Part shown: positions 23,885 through 34,556 of the stretch, in pieces
How the letters are laid out: every line of letters starts with the position of its first letter
How positions within the stretch are numbered: the first letter of the stretch is position 1
NCBI GenBank assembly: GCA_019347945.1
Contig: JAHWKK010000009.1
Location: 62,001 to 126,000, forward strand
DNA from: Acidobacteriota bacterium
Lineage (GTDB): Bacteria; Acidobacteriota; Thermoanaerobaculia; Gp7-AA8; JAHWKK01
Length of the DNA stretch: 64,000 bases
Direction: 5' to 3'
Made by a program: the position numbers and the translations under genes
The notes under the pieces: generated by a model
Told to the model about the DNA's origin: nothing
Seen by the model: only the letters and a program-made list of their open reading frames with translations
Databases searched by the model: none

Positions 23885-24343
23885 TCATTCCGAGCTCGCC
23901 CGGACCGTGAACGTTCTTCCCTCCGGCATCTGGAGATCCACCAGCTCGATTCCCACCTTCCCGGCAACCTCTCTGGACCGGTCATCCCGGTAAAACTCGC
24001 CGTAGAAGATTTTCGAGATTCCAGCATTTGCAATCAGTTTGAAACAGTTCCAACACGGAGAAGCCGTCGTGTACAGCTCGGCCCCATCGATCCGCGCGCC
24101 GTTCCGCGCCGCCTGCAGGATGGCGTTCGCCTCGGCGTGCACCGTCGAGATGCAATGACCATTCTCCATCTCACACCCATCATCCTCGCAATGAGGCATC
24201 CCTCGCAGCGATCCGTTGTAACCGGTCGAAAGGACCGTCCGGTCCCGGACGATGACTGCTCCGACGTGTTTTCGCGTACACGTCGACCGTGTCGCAGCCT
24301 GATGGGCAATTCCCATGAAGTACTCGTTCCAGTCAGCTCTCAC
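23885..24343 (-). CDS. dCMP deaminase/ComEB-type cytidine deaminase
   Basis: The likely start is the GTG at 24343, which has an AGAGGAG site about 5 bases upstream and gives 152 residues; an ATG at 24415 lies within the divergent receiver gene. The deaminase zinc site is complete: HAEAN supplies His and the catalytic Glu, and SPCWNC the two cysteines. The TRKHVGAVIV and TGYNGSLRGMPHC segments fit dCMP deaminases and ComEB proteins, which convert dCMP to dUMP. That product would feed thymidylate synthase. Extra Cys/His around PHCEDDGCEM may bind a second zinc. Confidence 0.88.
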   Translation of the reverse strand: MRADWNEYFMGIAHQAATRSTCTRKHVGAVIVRDRTVLSTGYNGSLRGMPHCEDDGCEMENGHCISTVHAEANAILQAARNGARIDGAELYTTASPCWNCFKLIANAGISKIFYGEFYRDDRSREVAGKVGIELVDLQMPEGRTFTVRASSE

Positions 24344-29068: not shown

Positions 29069-30229
29069 GTGTCACAGACTGCTGCGGTTCCCGACTACGG
29101 GACTAACCCCGCCGAATCGGGGGGCGCGCATTCAGATCTCGAGGAGAACGTTCTCAACTTCCTCGAGCGGGAGAGGGAAGTCGGCAGTTTTCCCGGAGCT
29201 GTCTGGGCCGCGGGGCATGCCAGCGGAATCGAGGCCGAAGGAATGGTCGGGCACAGTGTGCTCAAGCCCGCCAGGATGCGCATCGGGATCGACACGATTT
29301 TCGACGTCGCTTCGCTGACCAAGCCGCTCATCACGGGTACCCTGATCCTGAGAGCCTGGGCAGACGGGTTGCTCGATCCCGGCGATCGTGCGTCGAAGTT
29401 TCTCCCCGAGCTCAGGAACACCGAGAAGGAGACGATCACCGTGCTCGACCTTCTCACGCATCGGGGCGGTTTCCAGGCGTGGTACCCCCTCTACACTCAG
29501 GGTCTCGGTAAGACGGCCTACCTCGACGCCATCAAACGTCGTCCGCTTCGATATCGCCCCGGCACCAGGCAGATCTACACCTGCCTCGGTTTCATCCTGC
29601 TGATCCAGATCGCGGAACGGGTCTTCGAGGAATCGATCGAGGATCTCACCGAACGTCTGATCTTTCAGCCGCTGGGTTTGAGAAATTCGATGTTCAACCC
29701 CTCCCCCTCGCTCCTTCACCGGATCGCCGCGACCGAGTGGGGCAACGCTAACGAGCGCCACATGGTGAAGCGTCGCCAGCTCAGTTTCGATGACTGGCGC
29801 GAGACGATGATCTGGGGAGAGGTCAACGACGGCAACGCCTTTTACATGGGTGGAATCGGTGGCAACGCCGGCCTCTTCTCCACCGCTCGGGAAGTCTTCG
29901 AGTTCGGACGCGCCTGGATCGACGGCTCCGAGAGACTCCTCCCCTCCGACATCACCGACCGCGCCCTTCGCAACTACACCATCGGACTGGAAGAGAATCG
30001 CGGTCTCGCATGGCAGCTTCACACACCGAAACCCGACCACCCCACCGTAAGACTCTCACCTCGCTCGTTTGGTCACACCGGCTTTACCGGGACCTCGATT
30101 TACGTCGATCCCGATCGCGAGCTCATCATGGTGCTGCTCACCAACAGGCTTCATCCGTCCTGCAAGCCCATCAACACGAATTACATCCGGCAAAAGTTTC
30201 ACGGGTTCATCATCAACGCCTGGGACTGA
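29069..30229 (+). CDS. Beta-lactamase-fold serine hydrolase (class C/EstB-like)
   Basis: The 386-residue product has the penicillin-binding-protein/beta-lactamase fold. SLTK at 82-85 supplies the nucleophilic Ser and Lys. The second motif, normally Y-x-N, reads YTC at 170-172, and the third is HTG in GHTGFTG near 345. No signal peptide is visible, so it is probably cytosolic. The proteins closest in layout are esterases and cell-wall-related serine hydrolases, not true lactamases. The start is a GTG at 29069. It lies 82 bases after the VanX-like gene, with a small hairpin (GGGCT/AGCCC) in the spacer, and may share its transcript. Confidence 0.88.
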   Translation: MSQTAAVPDYGTNPAESGGAHSDLEENVLNFLEREREVGSFPGAVWAAGHASGIEAEGMVGHSVLKPARMRIGIDTIFDVASLTKPLITGTLILRAWADGLLDPGDRASKFLPELRNTEKETITVLDLLTHRGGFQAWYPLYTQGLGKTAYLDAIKRRPLRYRPGTRQIYTCLGFILLIQIAERVFEESIEDLTERLIFQPLGLRNSMFNPSPSLLHRIAATEWGNANERHMVKRRQLSFDDWRETMIWGEVNDGNAFYMGGIGGNAGLFSTAREVFEFGRAWIDGSERLLPSDITDRALRNYTIGLEENRGLAWQLHTPKPDHPTVRLSPRSFGHTGFTGTSIYVDPDRELIMVLLTNRLHPSCKPINTNYIRQKFHGFIINAWD

Positions 30230-30852
30230 CGGTTGCCGGTGGCCGATGGCCAGTTGCCGGCGGCCGGGGTCGGTCGTGAAGCCACGTGACCCGCCCCTGA
30301 AACGCTCACTCACGATCCCCCACCCAGATTCTTCGCCCGCGCTCCGCCGGGCTCAGAATGACGTGGGTTAGATTGTTTCGCTCGCCACATCCAAACACTC
30401 GTCATCCTGAGCAATTGACCGGCGCGTTGCGCCGGTGAAGCGGGAATGAAAACCGGAGCCTGCAAAACTCCGCATCCCATACTCAAACCGACGTCGTCCC
30501 GAGCGGGCGGTCGGGCGGGCAAGCGAGGGACCTTGCAGGGTGGGACATCAGGCCAAGCGGAGCGCTGCAGAAGGTCGAAGTCCACGCAATTTCGTGGTCG
30601 TTTCATTAGGAGCCGCCAACGGACGGCGAAGGATCTGGGGCAGGTCATGAGGCGAAGTGACGAGCCCCTGCAAAGCCTGATTCCCGACCCCCGCCCGGAT
30701 CGTCCGGAAACCTCCAAAACGCGGCATCCTGAAAATAGTCGAAATTTTTTCGAAATACCTCTTGCAAATTCACGATTAATGCTCCATCTTTTCGTTATCG
30801 CGACCGCGTCCGGAATGGACCGGACCCGGGCTTCGCAGAGGAGGGCATAAAA
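30230..30852. repeat. Gene-free stretch with mosaic repeats, then an AT-rich promoter-like zone
   Basis: Bases 30232-30270 hold the GTTGCC-type repeat. Bases 30295-30365 are one arm of the inverted-repeat family. Bases 30385-30670 carry the longer composite segment shared with 39010-39260 and, inverted, 5501-5700. Bases 30727-30830 are strikingly AT-rich against the background, with a TCGAAA/TTTCGA palindrome and a possible minus-35 TTGCAA at 30762, and probably serve as promoter of the small basic peptide gene that follows. Confidence 0.75.
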
Positions 30853-30924
30853 ATGCCAGCCAAGAAGAAAGCGGCTAAGCCGGCCAAAGCAACGAAACCC
30901 GCCGCCAAGCCCAAAAAGAAGTAA
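30853..30924 (+). CDS. 23-residue Lys/Ala/Pro-rich basic peptide
   Basis: An ATG, 22 further codons and a TAA encode a peptide composed only of Met, Pro, Ala, Lys and Thr, with K-K-K at both ends and A-K-P repeats between. GAGGAGGG stands 8-15 bases upstream as a ribosome site. An AT-rich promoter-like zone precedes it, and a perfect 9-bp GC hairpin follows 14 bases after the stop. The peptide resembles the tails of histone H1-like and AlgP-type bacterial proteins, so nucleic-acid binding is plausible. Its own promoter-like region, ribosome site and hairpin make chance unlikely, but expression is not shown. Confidence 0.6.
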   Translation: MPAKKKAAKPAKATKPAAKPKKK

Positions 30925-30938
30925 GCCGATACAGAACC

Positions 30939-30962
30939 GGGGGCGCCGAATACGGCGCCCCC
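30939..30962 (+). terminator. Perfect 9-bp GC hairpin after the basic peptide gene
   Basis: GGGGGCGCC and GGCGCCCCC form a perfect stem with a 6-base loop, 14 bases after the peptide stop. There is no U-tract, so it may act as an RNA 3' end stabiliser or Rho-linked terminator. Confidence 0.6.
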
Positions 30963-31070
30963 GCTGCTCTCCCGCCTTTCCCCCCTCGACATCCTCGCTT
31001 CAGCGCCGATCCCTACGATGAGGTAACTTCCCGGCCAGTTCTGCGTACGTGCATACAGGAGGGCTCTGAA

Positions 31071-31823
31071 ATGAAAAGCATGATCATCGCCGCGGCGGTG
31101 CTCGCCGCATCCGCCAGTGTCGCACACGCCGACTGTCGGTACGAAGCGCCGCGGGCAATCAGTGCGGTCGACACTTCGGGAATCAGCGCAGTCCGAGTGA
31201 TCACCGGAGCTGGTTCGCTCGAGGTGACGGGCCGTTCCGGAGGTCCGATCGAAGCAACGGGAACGGCCTGCGCCTCGAACCAGGATGATCTCGAGGACAT
31301 CCGGCTCGTCGCGCGAAAACGCGGCCAGACTCTCGAGATCGAGGCCGAAATTCCCGATCAGAACAGGTCCTGGGGACGTAGTGCCAGGATGGATGTCCGG
31401 ATCTCACTGCCTGACTCGATCGAGCTCGAGATCGAAGACGGCAGCGGATCGATCGCGATTCGCAACACGGGTGACACGCGCATCGACGACGGCTCCGGCT
31501 CGATCAACGTGCAGGGTGCACGGTCGCTCTGGATCGACGACGGCTCCGGCGACATCGACATCGAGAACGTCGCCGGTCTGGTCGAGATCGAGGACGGGTC
31601 CGGCGACATCGACATCCGCGACGTCCGAAACACCGTTCGCATACTCGATGACGGCTCCGGCGGTATCGACATCGAGCGCGTCACCGGGAGTGTCATCATC
31701 GACGACGACGGCTCCGGAGGAATCTATGTAACGGAGGTCGAAGGCGATCTGATCGTCGGTGATCACGGGAGCGGCGGCCTCTCATTCGACCGAATCACCG
31801 GAAAGGTCTCGGTACGGGACTGA
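31071..31823 (+). CDS. Secreted DGSG-repeat beta-helix-like protein (DUF4097-like)
   Basis: The 250-residue product has a signal peptide ending AHA at about residue 20. After an N-terminal strand-rich part, residues about 120-250 hold seven units of about 15-22 residues built around (D/E)DGSG(S/D/G)I, with a hydrophobic strand after each. This regular spacing is typical of right-handed beta-helix or DUF4097-type proteins. The units change in order: two GSGS, two GSGD, then three GSGG. A similar protein with GVGD units is encoded at 35230-35868. A perfect hairpin follows the stop. Cell-surface or periplasmic location is likely; function unknown. Confidence 0.8.
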   Translation: MKSMIIAAAVLAASASVAHADCRYEAPRAISAVDTSGISAVRVITGAGSLEVTGRSGGPIEATGTACASNQDDLEDIRLVARKRGQTLEIEAEIPDQNRSWGRSARMDVRISLPDSIELEIEDGSGSIAIRNTGDTRIDDGSGSINVQGARSLWIDDGSGDIDIENVAGLVEIEDGSGDIDIRDVRNTVRILDDGSGGIDIERVTGSVIIDDDGSGGIYVTEVEGDLIVGDHGSGGLSFDRITGKVSVRD

Positions 31824-33677: not shown

Positions 33678-33707
33678 AGAAAGATGGTTGGAGGATCGAA
33701 GTTCGCT

Positions 33708-33870
33708 CTCGCCACATCCAAACACTCGTCATCCTGAGCCGCCGAAGGACGGCGAAGGATCTGGGGGACGGTCGTGAGGCAACCCGACCAGAACCTCAAA
33801 CGTTCATTCACGAACCCCCGCCCAGATTCTTCGCCCGCGCTCCGCCGGGCTCAGAATGACGTGGGTTAAA
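33708..33870. repeat. Inverted-repeat element, arms a then b
   Basis: The left arm (33728-33777) reads GTCATCCTGAGC with an inner GCCG/CGGC palindrome and AAGGATCTGG; the right arm (33809-33862) is its imperfect complement with the inner palindrome CCCGCG...CGGG. A 30-base centre separates them. Nearby at 33886-33915 is a block of CTAATCC/CTGATCC units. Confidence 0.85.
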
Positions 33871-34394: not shown

Positions 34395-34556
34395 ACTCTC
34401 GCCACATTCCTTCACTCGTCATCCTGAGCCGCCGAAGGACGGCGAAGGATCTGGAGGACGGTCGTGAGTCAACGTAACGAGAATCTGAAGTGCTCACTCG
34501 TGAGCCCCCGCCCAGATCCTTCGCCCGCGCTTTGCCGGGCTCAGGATGACGTGGGC
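34395..34556. repeat. Inverted-repeat element between msrA and msrB, arms a then b
   Basis: This has the same structure and orientation as the copy at 33708-33870: GTCATCCTGAGC...AAGGATCTGG at left and CCAGATCC...CTCAGGATGAC at right with a 30-base centre. Its left end provides the bases just upstream of the msrA start codon. Bases 34557-34610 add a CCGAACCTCCAACC-type repeat. Confidence 0.85.

Follow-up and report, generated by a model that had tools for sequence, protein, structure and literature searches.

The window, by which we mean the whole 64,000-nucleotide stretch analysed here, carries on its forward strand a 72-nt frame from ATG to TAA that encodes a peptide of 23 residues, all of them Met, Pro, Ala, Lys or Thr, as had been stated in a preliminary description of this DNA. 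The frame is preceded by an AT-rich zone and a Shine-Dalgarno sequence, is followed by a GC hairpin and then by a gene for a DUF4097 (toastrack) protein (Table 1), and is too short for the usual gene finders. Internal repeats of 27 nt in the DUF4097 gene encode a DDGSG-type motif. An intergenic repeat of 160 nt occurs in three copies; identity to the copy taken as reference is 64% and 86% for the other two, and one copy ends approximately 490 nt before the micro-ORF.

Table 1 Features at the locus and related features elsewhere in the window.
Feature	Position	Strand	Remarks
AT-rich zone, putative promoter	30733..30800	+	32% GC, compared with 61% for the window
Shine-Dalgarno sequence, GAGGAGGG	30838..30845	+	AGGAGG at 30839-30844; spacer of 8 nt to the ATG
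Micro-gene, 23 codons, MPAKKKAAKPAKATKPAAKPKKK	30853..30924	+	ATG at 30853, TAA at 30922-30924; net charge +10
Perfect 11-bp GC hairpin, loop AATA, terminator-like	30938..30963	+	After the micro-ORF stop
DUF4097 (toastrack) protein gene	31071..31823	+	Downstream; Pfam match above gathering; 218 nt from the micro-gene
Relative of dCMP-deaminase-like gene	23915..24343	-	70% identity; 6.5 kb from the micro-ORF
Intergenic repeat of 160 nt	30208..30367, 33706..33865, 34396..34555		Carries CATCCTGAGC blocks

Signals around the micro-ORF

The ribosome site, previously given as GAGGAGG, is present, with AGGAGG 8 nt before the ATG. The hairpin does have a perfect stem, although this is 11 bp long and not 9 bp as first described; it lacks a U-tract on the plus strand, with three T in the next 10 bases. 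Perfect stems of at least 9 bp with a loop of 3 to 8 occur at five sites in the window, this hairpin being one of them. The AT-richness of the upstream zone was also borne out, being matched by approximately 0.01% of the 68-nt stretches in the window, whereas its promoter-like character was supported only in part. The best sigma-70-like pair near the ORF, TTGCAA-17-CATCTT at -91, gave p = 0.5 compared with shuffles, and a promoter scan of the window yielded no promoter for the micro-ORF. A sigma-70 promoter for this copy is at best weak, its score not being above that of the shuffles.

We defined the set of A/K micro-proteins by criteria of our own: 14 to 40 codons, at least 85% K, A, P, T, S, G, V, M, R, C, H or W, and at least 32% K; further marks considered were a Shine-Dalgarno match of at least 6 nt, an intrinsic terminator (stem plus U-tract) and a sigma-70 promoter of the gene's own. 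The window ORF lies within these limits of length and composition and has at least six matching Shine-Dalgarno nucleotides before its ATG. It is the only ORF of such composition in the window, and none was found in 180 Markov-simulated windows (orders 1, 3 and 5; 60 each). A hydrophobic transmembrane stretch, the sign of a type I toxin or membrane micro-protein, was absent on reading of the window and family sequences.

Comparable genes in the phylum

Pattern searches of 497 genomes of the same phylum (G000 to G496) yielded 46 comparable ORFs of 14 to 34 codons in 38 genomes and none in the remaining 459; these counts are lower bounds, given that not all genomes were searched with all patterns. 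The phylum is probably Acidobacteriota: ClpX encoded in the window has 75-81% identity to that of five genomes of the same class, 70-71% to three others of the phylum, 72% to a named Thermoanaerobaculia genome, 57-60% to three genomes with the labels Acidobacteriota, Acidobacteria and Aminicenantes, and 58-63% to four gammaproteobacteria. The preliminary description had proposed a search of relatives for the A-K-P peptide together with the hairpin, and stand-alone micro-ORFs were indeed found there, in most cases accompanied by both a ribosome site and a hairpin. At the DNA level, a homologue of the window gene was found in none of 60 genomes (its own included), where the only matches besides itself were of 20 to 42 nt, and the window's genome is the sole representative of its own family, f1, among the genomes searched.

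A codon-degenerate pattern for M-P-A-K-K-K-A matched 6 of the 148 genomes of the class, with 1 for the reversed control. The six comprise the window's genome, one with a longer unrelated protein (L029) and four that make up genus g15. All four of the latter encode a 20-residue peptide, MPAKKKAAKKSTKK[A/G]KKGKK, and each has AGGAGGTGA as well as a stem with a T-run after it; the first nine residues in the window, MPAKKKAAK, are the same in the g15 peptides. Within the window's order, A/K micro-ORFs are present in 8 of 18 other genomes. They derive from a looser pattern that hit 10 of 19 genomes, at 13 places in all, and in count did not exceed its reversed control, which likewise gave 13 places. 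The eight were selected among these places by their composition; they are A/K ORFs of 18 to 21 residues, one per genome, with a common leader.

The window ORF might be a chance ORF, or a non-gene that resembles the family by composition only, as the lack of a clear promoter, the U-poor hairpin, the lack of a DNA homologue and the different leader of the same-order relatives would allow. We consider this very improbable in view of the simulated windows, the nine residues shared with g15, the joint presence of ribosome site and hairpin, and the occurrence of the same kind of ORF in those eight genomes of the order. The window gene thus probably belongs to the set and is not a chance look-alike.

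Two patterns were applied to 396 genomes of the phylum. The combination of Shine-Dalgarno sequence, ORF and KK-stop was found in 18 genomes, compared with 7 for the reversed control; removal of three chance matches (L035, L036 and L042) left 17 genes in 15 genomes. The pattern M[AP][AT]KKKxxKK, with no Shine-Dalgarno sequence required, was found at 30 places in 22 genomes and nowhere for its reversed control. Micro-ORFs account for 25 of these places (18 genomes). The other five belong to longer frames, three with 126, 50 and 50 residues and two that are open over 518 and 107 codons. The longer A/K-rich ORFs with the same type of start, in L258 (50 residues), L266 (126) and L267 (50), suggest a continuum from short to longer A/K-rich ORFs. 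The G256 class gave matches in 6 of 41 genomes and 0 for the control; five of the six have two copies, and the second copy of the sixth, G403, was found with the pattern ending in KK-stop.

Some other searches were less sensitive. The gap in the looser same-order pattern, and in another that matched 7 of 148 genomes, was too short for the window gene, and both patterns therefore undercount 23-residue members; one of the seven matches, G078, proved to be a 300-residue frame. The second of these patterns matched none of 19 named genomes from the downstream-gene search loci. Alignment A1, used as a profile, lacked sensitivity: at E<=1 it reached 10 of 396 genomes and missed the window gene. A composition scan of 706,895 bases (the window and the fetched regions) gave 50 ORFs: the 46 at the targeted places and four others, namely an unrelated one (L071), one beside the L263 member, and upstream ORFs in L264 and L265. 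A second short A/K-rich ORF thus adjoins the micro-gene at L263 (8156), L264 (7964) and L265 (7939).

Longer phage proteins, too, often carry the NH2-terminal motif M[AP][AT]KKKA. A phage origin was rejected: 105 viral stretches carry the motif, and in the 80 examined only five frames were of 20 residues or fewer, the rest being longer. One of these five is cut by the contig end, and three, on the viral contigs L093, L118 and L146, encode an identical 19-residue peptide, MATKKKATKKAKKKKLMQP. A plasmid search gave no match. The A/K micro-ORFs of different lineages may have arisen by convergence and not by common descent, given that low-complexity peptides can converge.

Members of the set have lysine-rich ends and mostly start with M-[AP]-[AT]-K-K, and the 30 ORFs that we tabulated have net charges of +8 to +14. 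A perfect Shine-Dalgarno match of at least 6 nt precedes 26 of these 30 (several have 9 to 10), a perfect stem of at least 5 lies within 110 nt past the stop of 28, and the stem is accompanied by at least four T in the next 10 bases in 26. In the composition scan, a stem of at least 6 plus at least four T followed 32 of the 50 ORFs. Sigma-70 promoters close to consensus could be recognized in the G256 class, in which all 12 rows have TTGACA or TTGACG and, at a distance of 16 to 17 nt, a TATATT-like hexamer, 87 to 120 nt before the start and each at p<=0.01 compared with shuffles; for the remaining 18 rows, no promoter reached p 0.05. All eight same-order relatives have TTGACA 199 to 224 nt upstream, followed 17 nt later by CATATT in six, as a putative promoter, and their ribosome site is of the GAAAGG type and not GGAGG. 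Lysine codons across the set are AAG in 351 cases and AAA in 60.

Coding evidence, leaders and neighbouring genes

With one pair per ortholog or paralog group, 16 of 23 changed codons were synonymous, compared with an expected fraction of 0.23 (P=3e-6). The pairs were of our choosing, and other same-order pairs gave 16/25 (P=1.4e-5) or 13/20 (P=7e-5). Two groups ran against the trend: f13, with one synonymous and three nonsynonymous changes, is counted in the 16/23, and f66B, with two and five, was omitted on account of differing lengths and an uncertain register; its addition gave 18/30 (P=1.5e-5). Two further groups of unequal length were also excluded. The two copies in G279 encode identical 23-residue peptides and have four synonymous differences. 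This bias indicates selection at least partly on the peptide, and a coding micro-gene, the stand-alone gene of the preliminary description, is the best reading of changes that are mostly synonymous between relatives. That the A/K family is coding has good support.

The main alternative is a small regulatory or dual-function RNA, the function of which would reside in the conserved leaders and terminators, with the ORF secondary. Leaders can indeed exceed the ORF in conservation: in the eight same-order relatives (L249 to L256, 86 nt before the micro-ORF), the leader is invariant at 52 of 89 columns, and a shared fold of 17 pairs is predicted, with GNGA as one hairpin loop. None of the 17 pairs, however, shows a compensatory change, and a model of this leader gave no match at E<1 either in the window or in any other lineage searched, with scores of 4.1 bits or less in a 401-base region of the window with filters off. 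The leader thus differs between lineages, yet the type of peptide stays. The mostly synonymous changes in the ORF and the perfect Shine-Dalgarno matches in 26 of 30 rows also speak against an RNA of this kind, which we regard as unlikely. It would moreover be undescribed, given that no Rfam family reached the gathering score in 28 loci; there was likewise none in the window, and the best match over a micro-gene below threshold was sX6 in L206, with 26.9 of the 40 bits needed. No tRNA or tmRNA was detected in 16 loci. The same-order leader is possibly an autoregulatory or riboswitch-like element; alternatively, a short overlapping frame may account for part of it.

The idea that leaders generally form a hairpin was rejected: the folding z is within -1 to 1 for 25 of 30 rows and below -2 for two, and the same-order model failed to find anything in the window. 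Some individual leaders do contain complementary blocks. Those of L206 and L207 (and partly L192 and L205) carry GATCTGG/CCAGATC and GAGCC/GGCTC 20 to 90 nt before the ORF, and in these leaders of the second-copy type a CCCCGG/CCGGGG-like pair could, on reading, form a pseudoknot beside the ribosome site. In the f36 loci L196 and L257, TGTGCGCC before the micro-ORF is complementary to GGCGCACA after it, as if the transcript ends paired.

The genes adjoining the micro-gene are shared within clades. In f4, f8 and f10 (seven loci; Pfam run on one of each), it has a divergent menaquinone-synthesis gene on one side and a PadR-type regulator on the other, and in both f13 loci it follows a class II ribonucleotide reductase. 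It is flanked by polyphosphate kinase and exopolyphosphatase in G256, and in G279 by the phosphatase alone nearby; no other of the 49 sources has either gene near the micro-gene. For all six second copies of the G256 class, from f61, f66, f75 and f85, the convergent neighbour is a dCMP-deaminase-like gene (Pfam on two). The same deaminase neighbour in four families speaks for vertical inheritance within this class. A relative of that deaminase gene is also present in the window, on the minus strand.

In the window's order, six of the eight relatives encode a related protein of approximately 220 residues, 174 to 331 nt downstream on the same strand. One of five such proteins scanned has a DUF4097 match below threshold and four have none, and alignment with the DUF4097 protein of the window was unconvincing; a single locus shared by the window and these relatives is doubtful on both grounds. 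Comparison of the window ORFs with the eight same-order loci gave nothing at 1e-10, and the reverse search gave three weak matches, all to one other gene at 35.2-35.9 kb of the window, which has no Pfam match.

These neighbours bear on the possibility that the ORF encodes a leader, attenuator or arrest peptide that controls a downstream gene by translation. A short Lys/Pro-rich ORF followed by a hairpin has the appropriate layout, as does the position of the DUF4097 gene on the same strand, and within the order the related downstream proteins in 6 of 8 relatives leave room for such control. Across lineages, however, no conserved downstream gene of the kind expected for an attenuator was found. 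The neighbours differ between lineages, and the 3' neighbour is in some cases convergent (exopolyphosphatase in two, the deaminase-like gene in 6/6), which argues against an attenuator and makes it, in our judgement, improbable.

A lineage-specific ribosomal protein or ribosome-bound peptide has also to be considered. bTHX (S31) of Thermus and eukaryotic eL41 are very basic proteins of approximately 25 residues, each encoded by a single small gene; they occupy defined ribosomal sites and are Arg-rich. The micro-protein resembles them in size, basicity and its small gene, and its strong translation signals fit, but it consists mostly of A, K, T and P and is not Arg-rich. Its presence is patchy, several genomes have two copies of differing length, and none of the few neighbours identified is ribosomal. 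A ribosomal peptide is accordingly a quite improbable reading.

Candidate function and comparison with known systems

ORFs, ribosome sites, most terminators, the promoters of one class, the synonymous bias and the clade-wise gene order are read directly from the DNA. The explanation that we favour, with a probability of roughly 0.58, is a stand-alone micro-gene for a peptide similar to a histone H1 tail, whose product compacts nucleoid, RNA or polyphosphate, or serves them as counter-ion, by virtue of its charge. The micro-gene would be transcribed and translated, probably at a high level, into a polycation of 14 to 34 residues that is probably disordered and amounts to a free-standing H1-like tail. 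Disorder and polyanion binding are to be expected of a peptide with such charge and with no visible hydrophobic run or signal peptide. The peptide would act by multivalent charge on polyanions, be these nucleoid DNA, RNA or ribosomes, or polyphosphate, and thus as a compacting, counter-ion or condensate-tuning agent and not as a sequence-specific regulator. Its composition also suggests binding to nucleic acids.

More tentatively, the genes may form a widely scattered, unrecorded family of polycations of 14 to 34 residues, with strong transcription units of their own, that serve as free-standing H1 tails or protamine-like peptides and set the condensation of nucleoid, RNA or polyphosphate. If so, bacteria encode polycationic tails of the H1 type in separate genes that fall below annotation limits, each with a promoter and a terminator of its own. 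The micro-gene is also a concrete and searchable example of what gene finders miss, and its peptide lends itself to direct tests of effects on the condensation of nucleoid, RNA or polyphosphate.

Pfam and NCBIfam returned no family for any of four peptides up to E=10, queries of approximately 20 residues being a weak test, and the PDB contained no match for the family profile; these negatives carry little weight because the queries are short and of low complexity. Family peptide strings had no full-text match in openly licensed papers (CC0, CC BY, CC BY-SA), and in the openly licensed literature on H1-like micro-proteins and on small proteins of Acidobacteria, the family is not named among the matches listed.

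The chlamydial histone-like proteins Hc1 and Hc2 are Lys/Ala-rich basic chromatin proteins and are several times longer than the micro-protein. They are a further system with which it can be compared (cf. PMC8343073). According to PMC9239181, DNA is bound by KPAA peptides, and AlgP is located at polyphosphate granules, the spacing of which requires its KPAA domain; homolysine peptides of as few as 9 residues coacervate with RNA, as described in PMC8979813. These precedents favour a compaction or counter-ion role. Like the KPAA-rich, H1-like tails of Pseudomonas AlgP and PhaF, the micro-protein is Lys/Ala/Pro-rich, strongly basic and expected to be disordered. Those tails are domains of approximately 150 residues on larger proteins, whereas the entire micro-protein has 14 to 34 residues, and in contrast to the polyphosphate link of AlgP, a polyphosphate gene lies nearby in only two loci, both f66. 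Peptide-coding bacterial small RNAs are similar in that a short transcript encodes a micro-protein, and the opening of the abstract of PMC5521070 names no lysine-alanine family. Lys/Ala tails of the H1 type and bacterial micro-proteins are thus known kinds, and what looks new is the free-standing version of 14 to 34 residues as a recurrent gene in a phylum.
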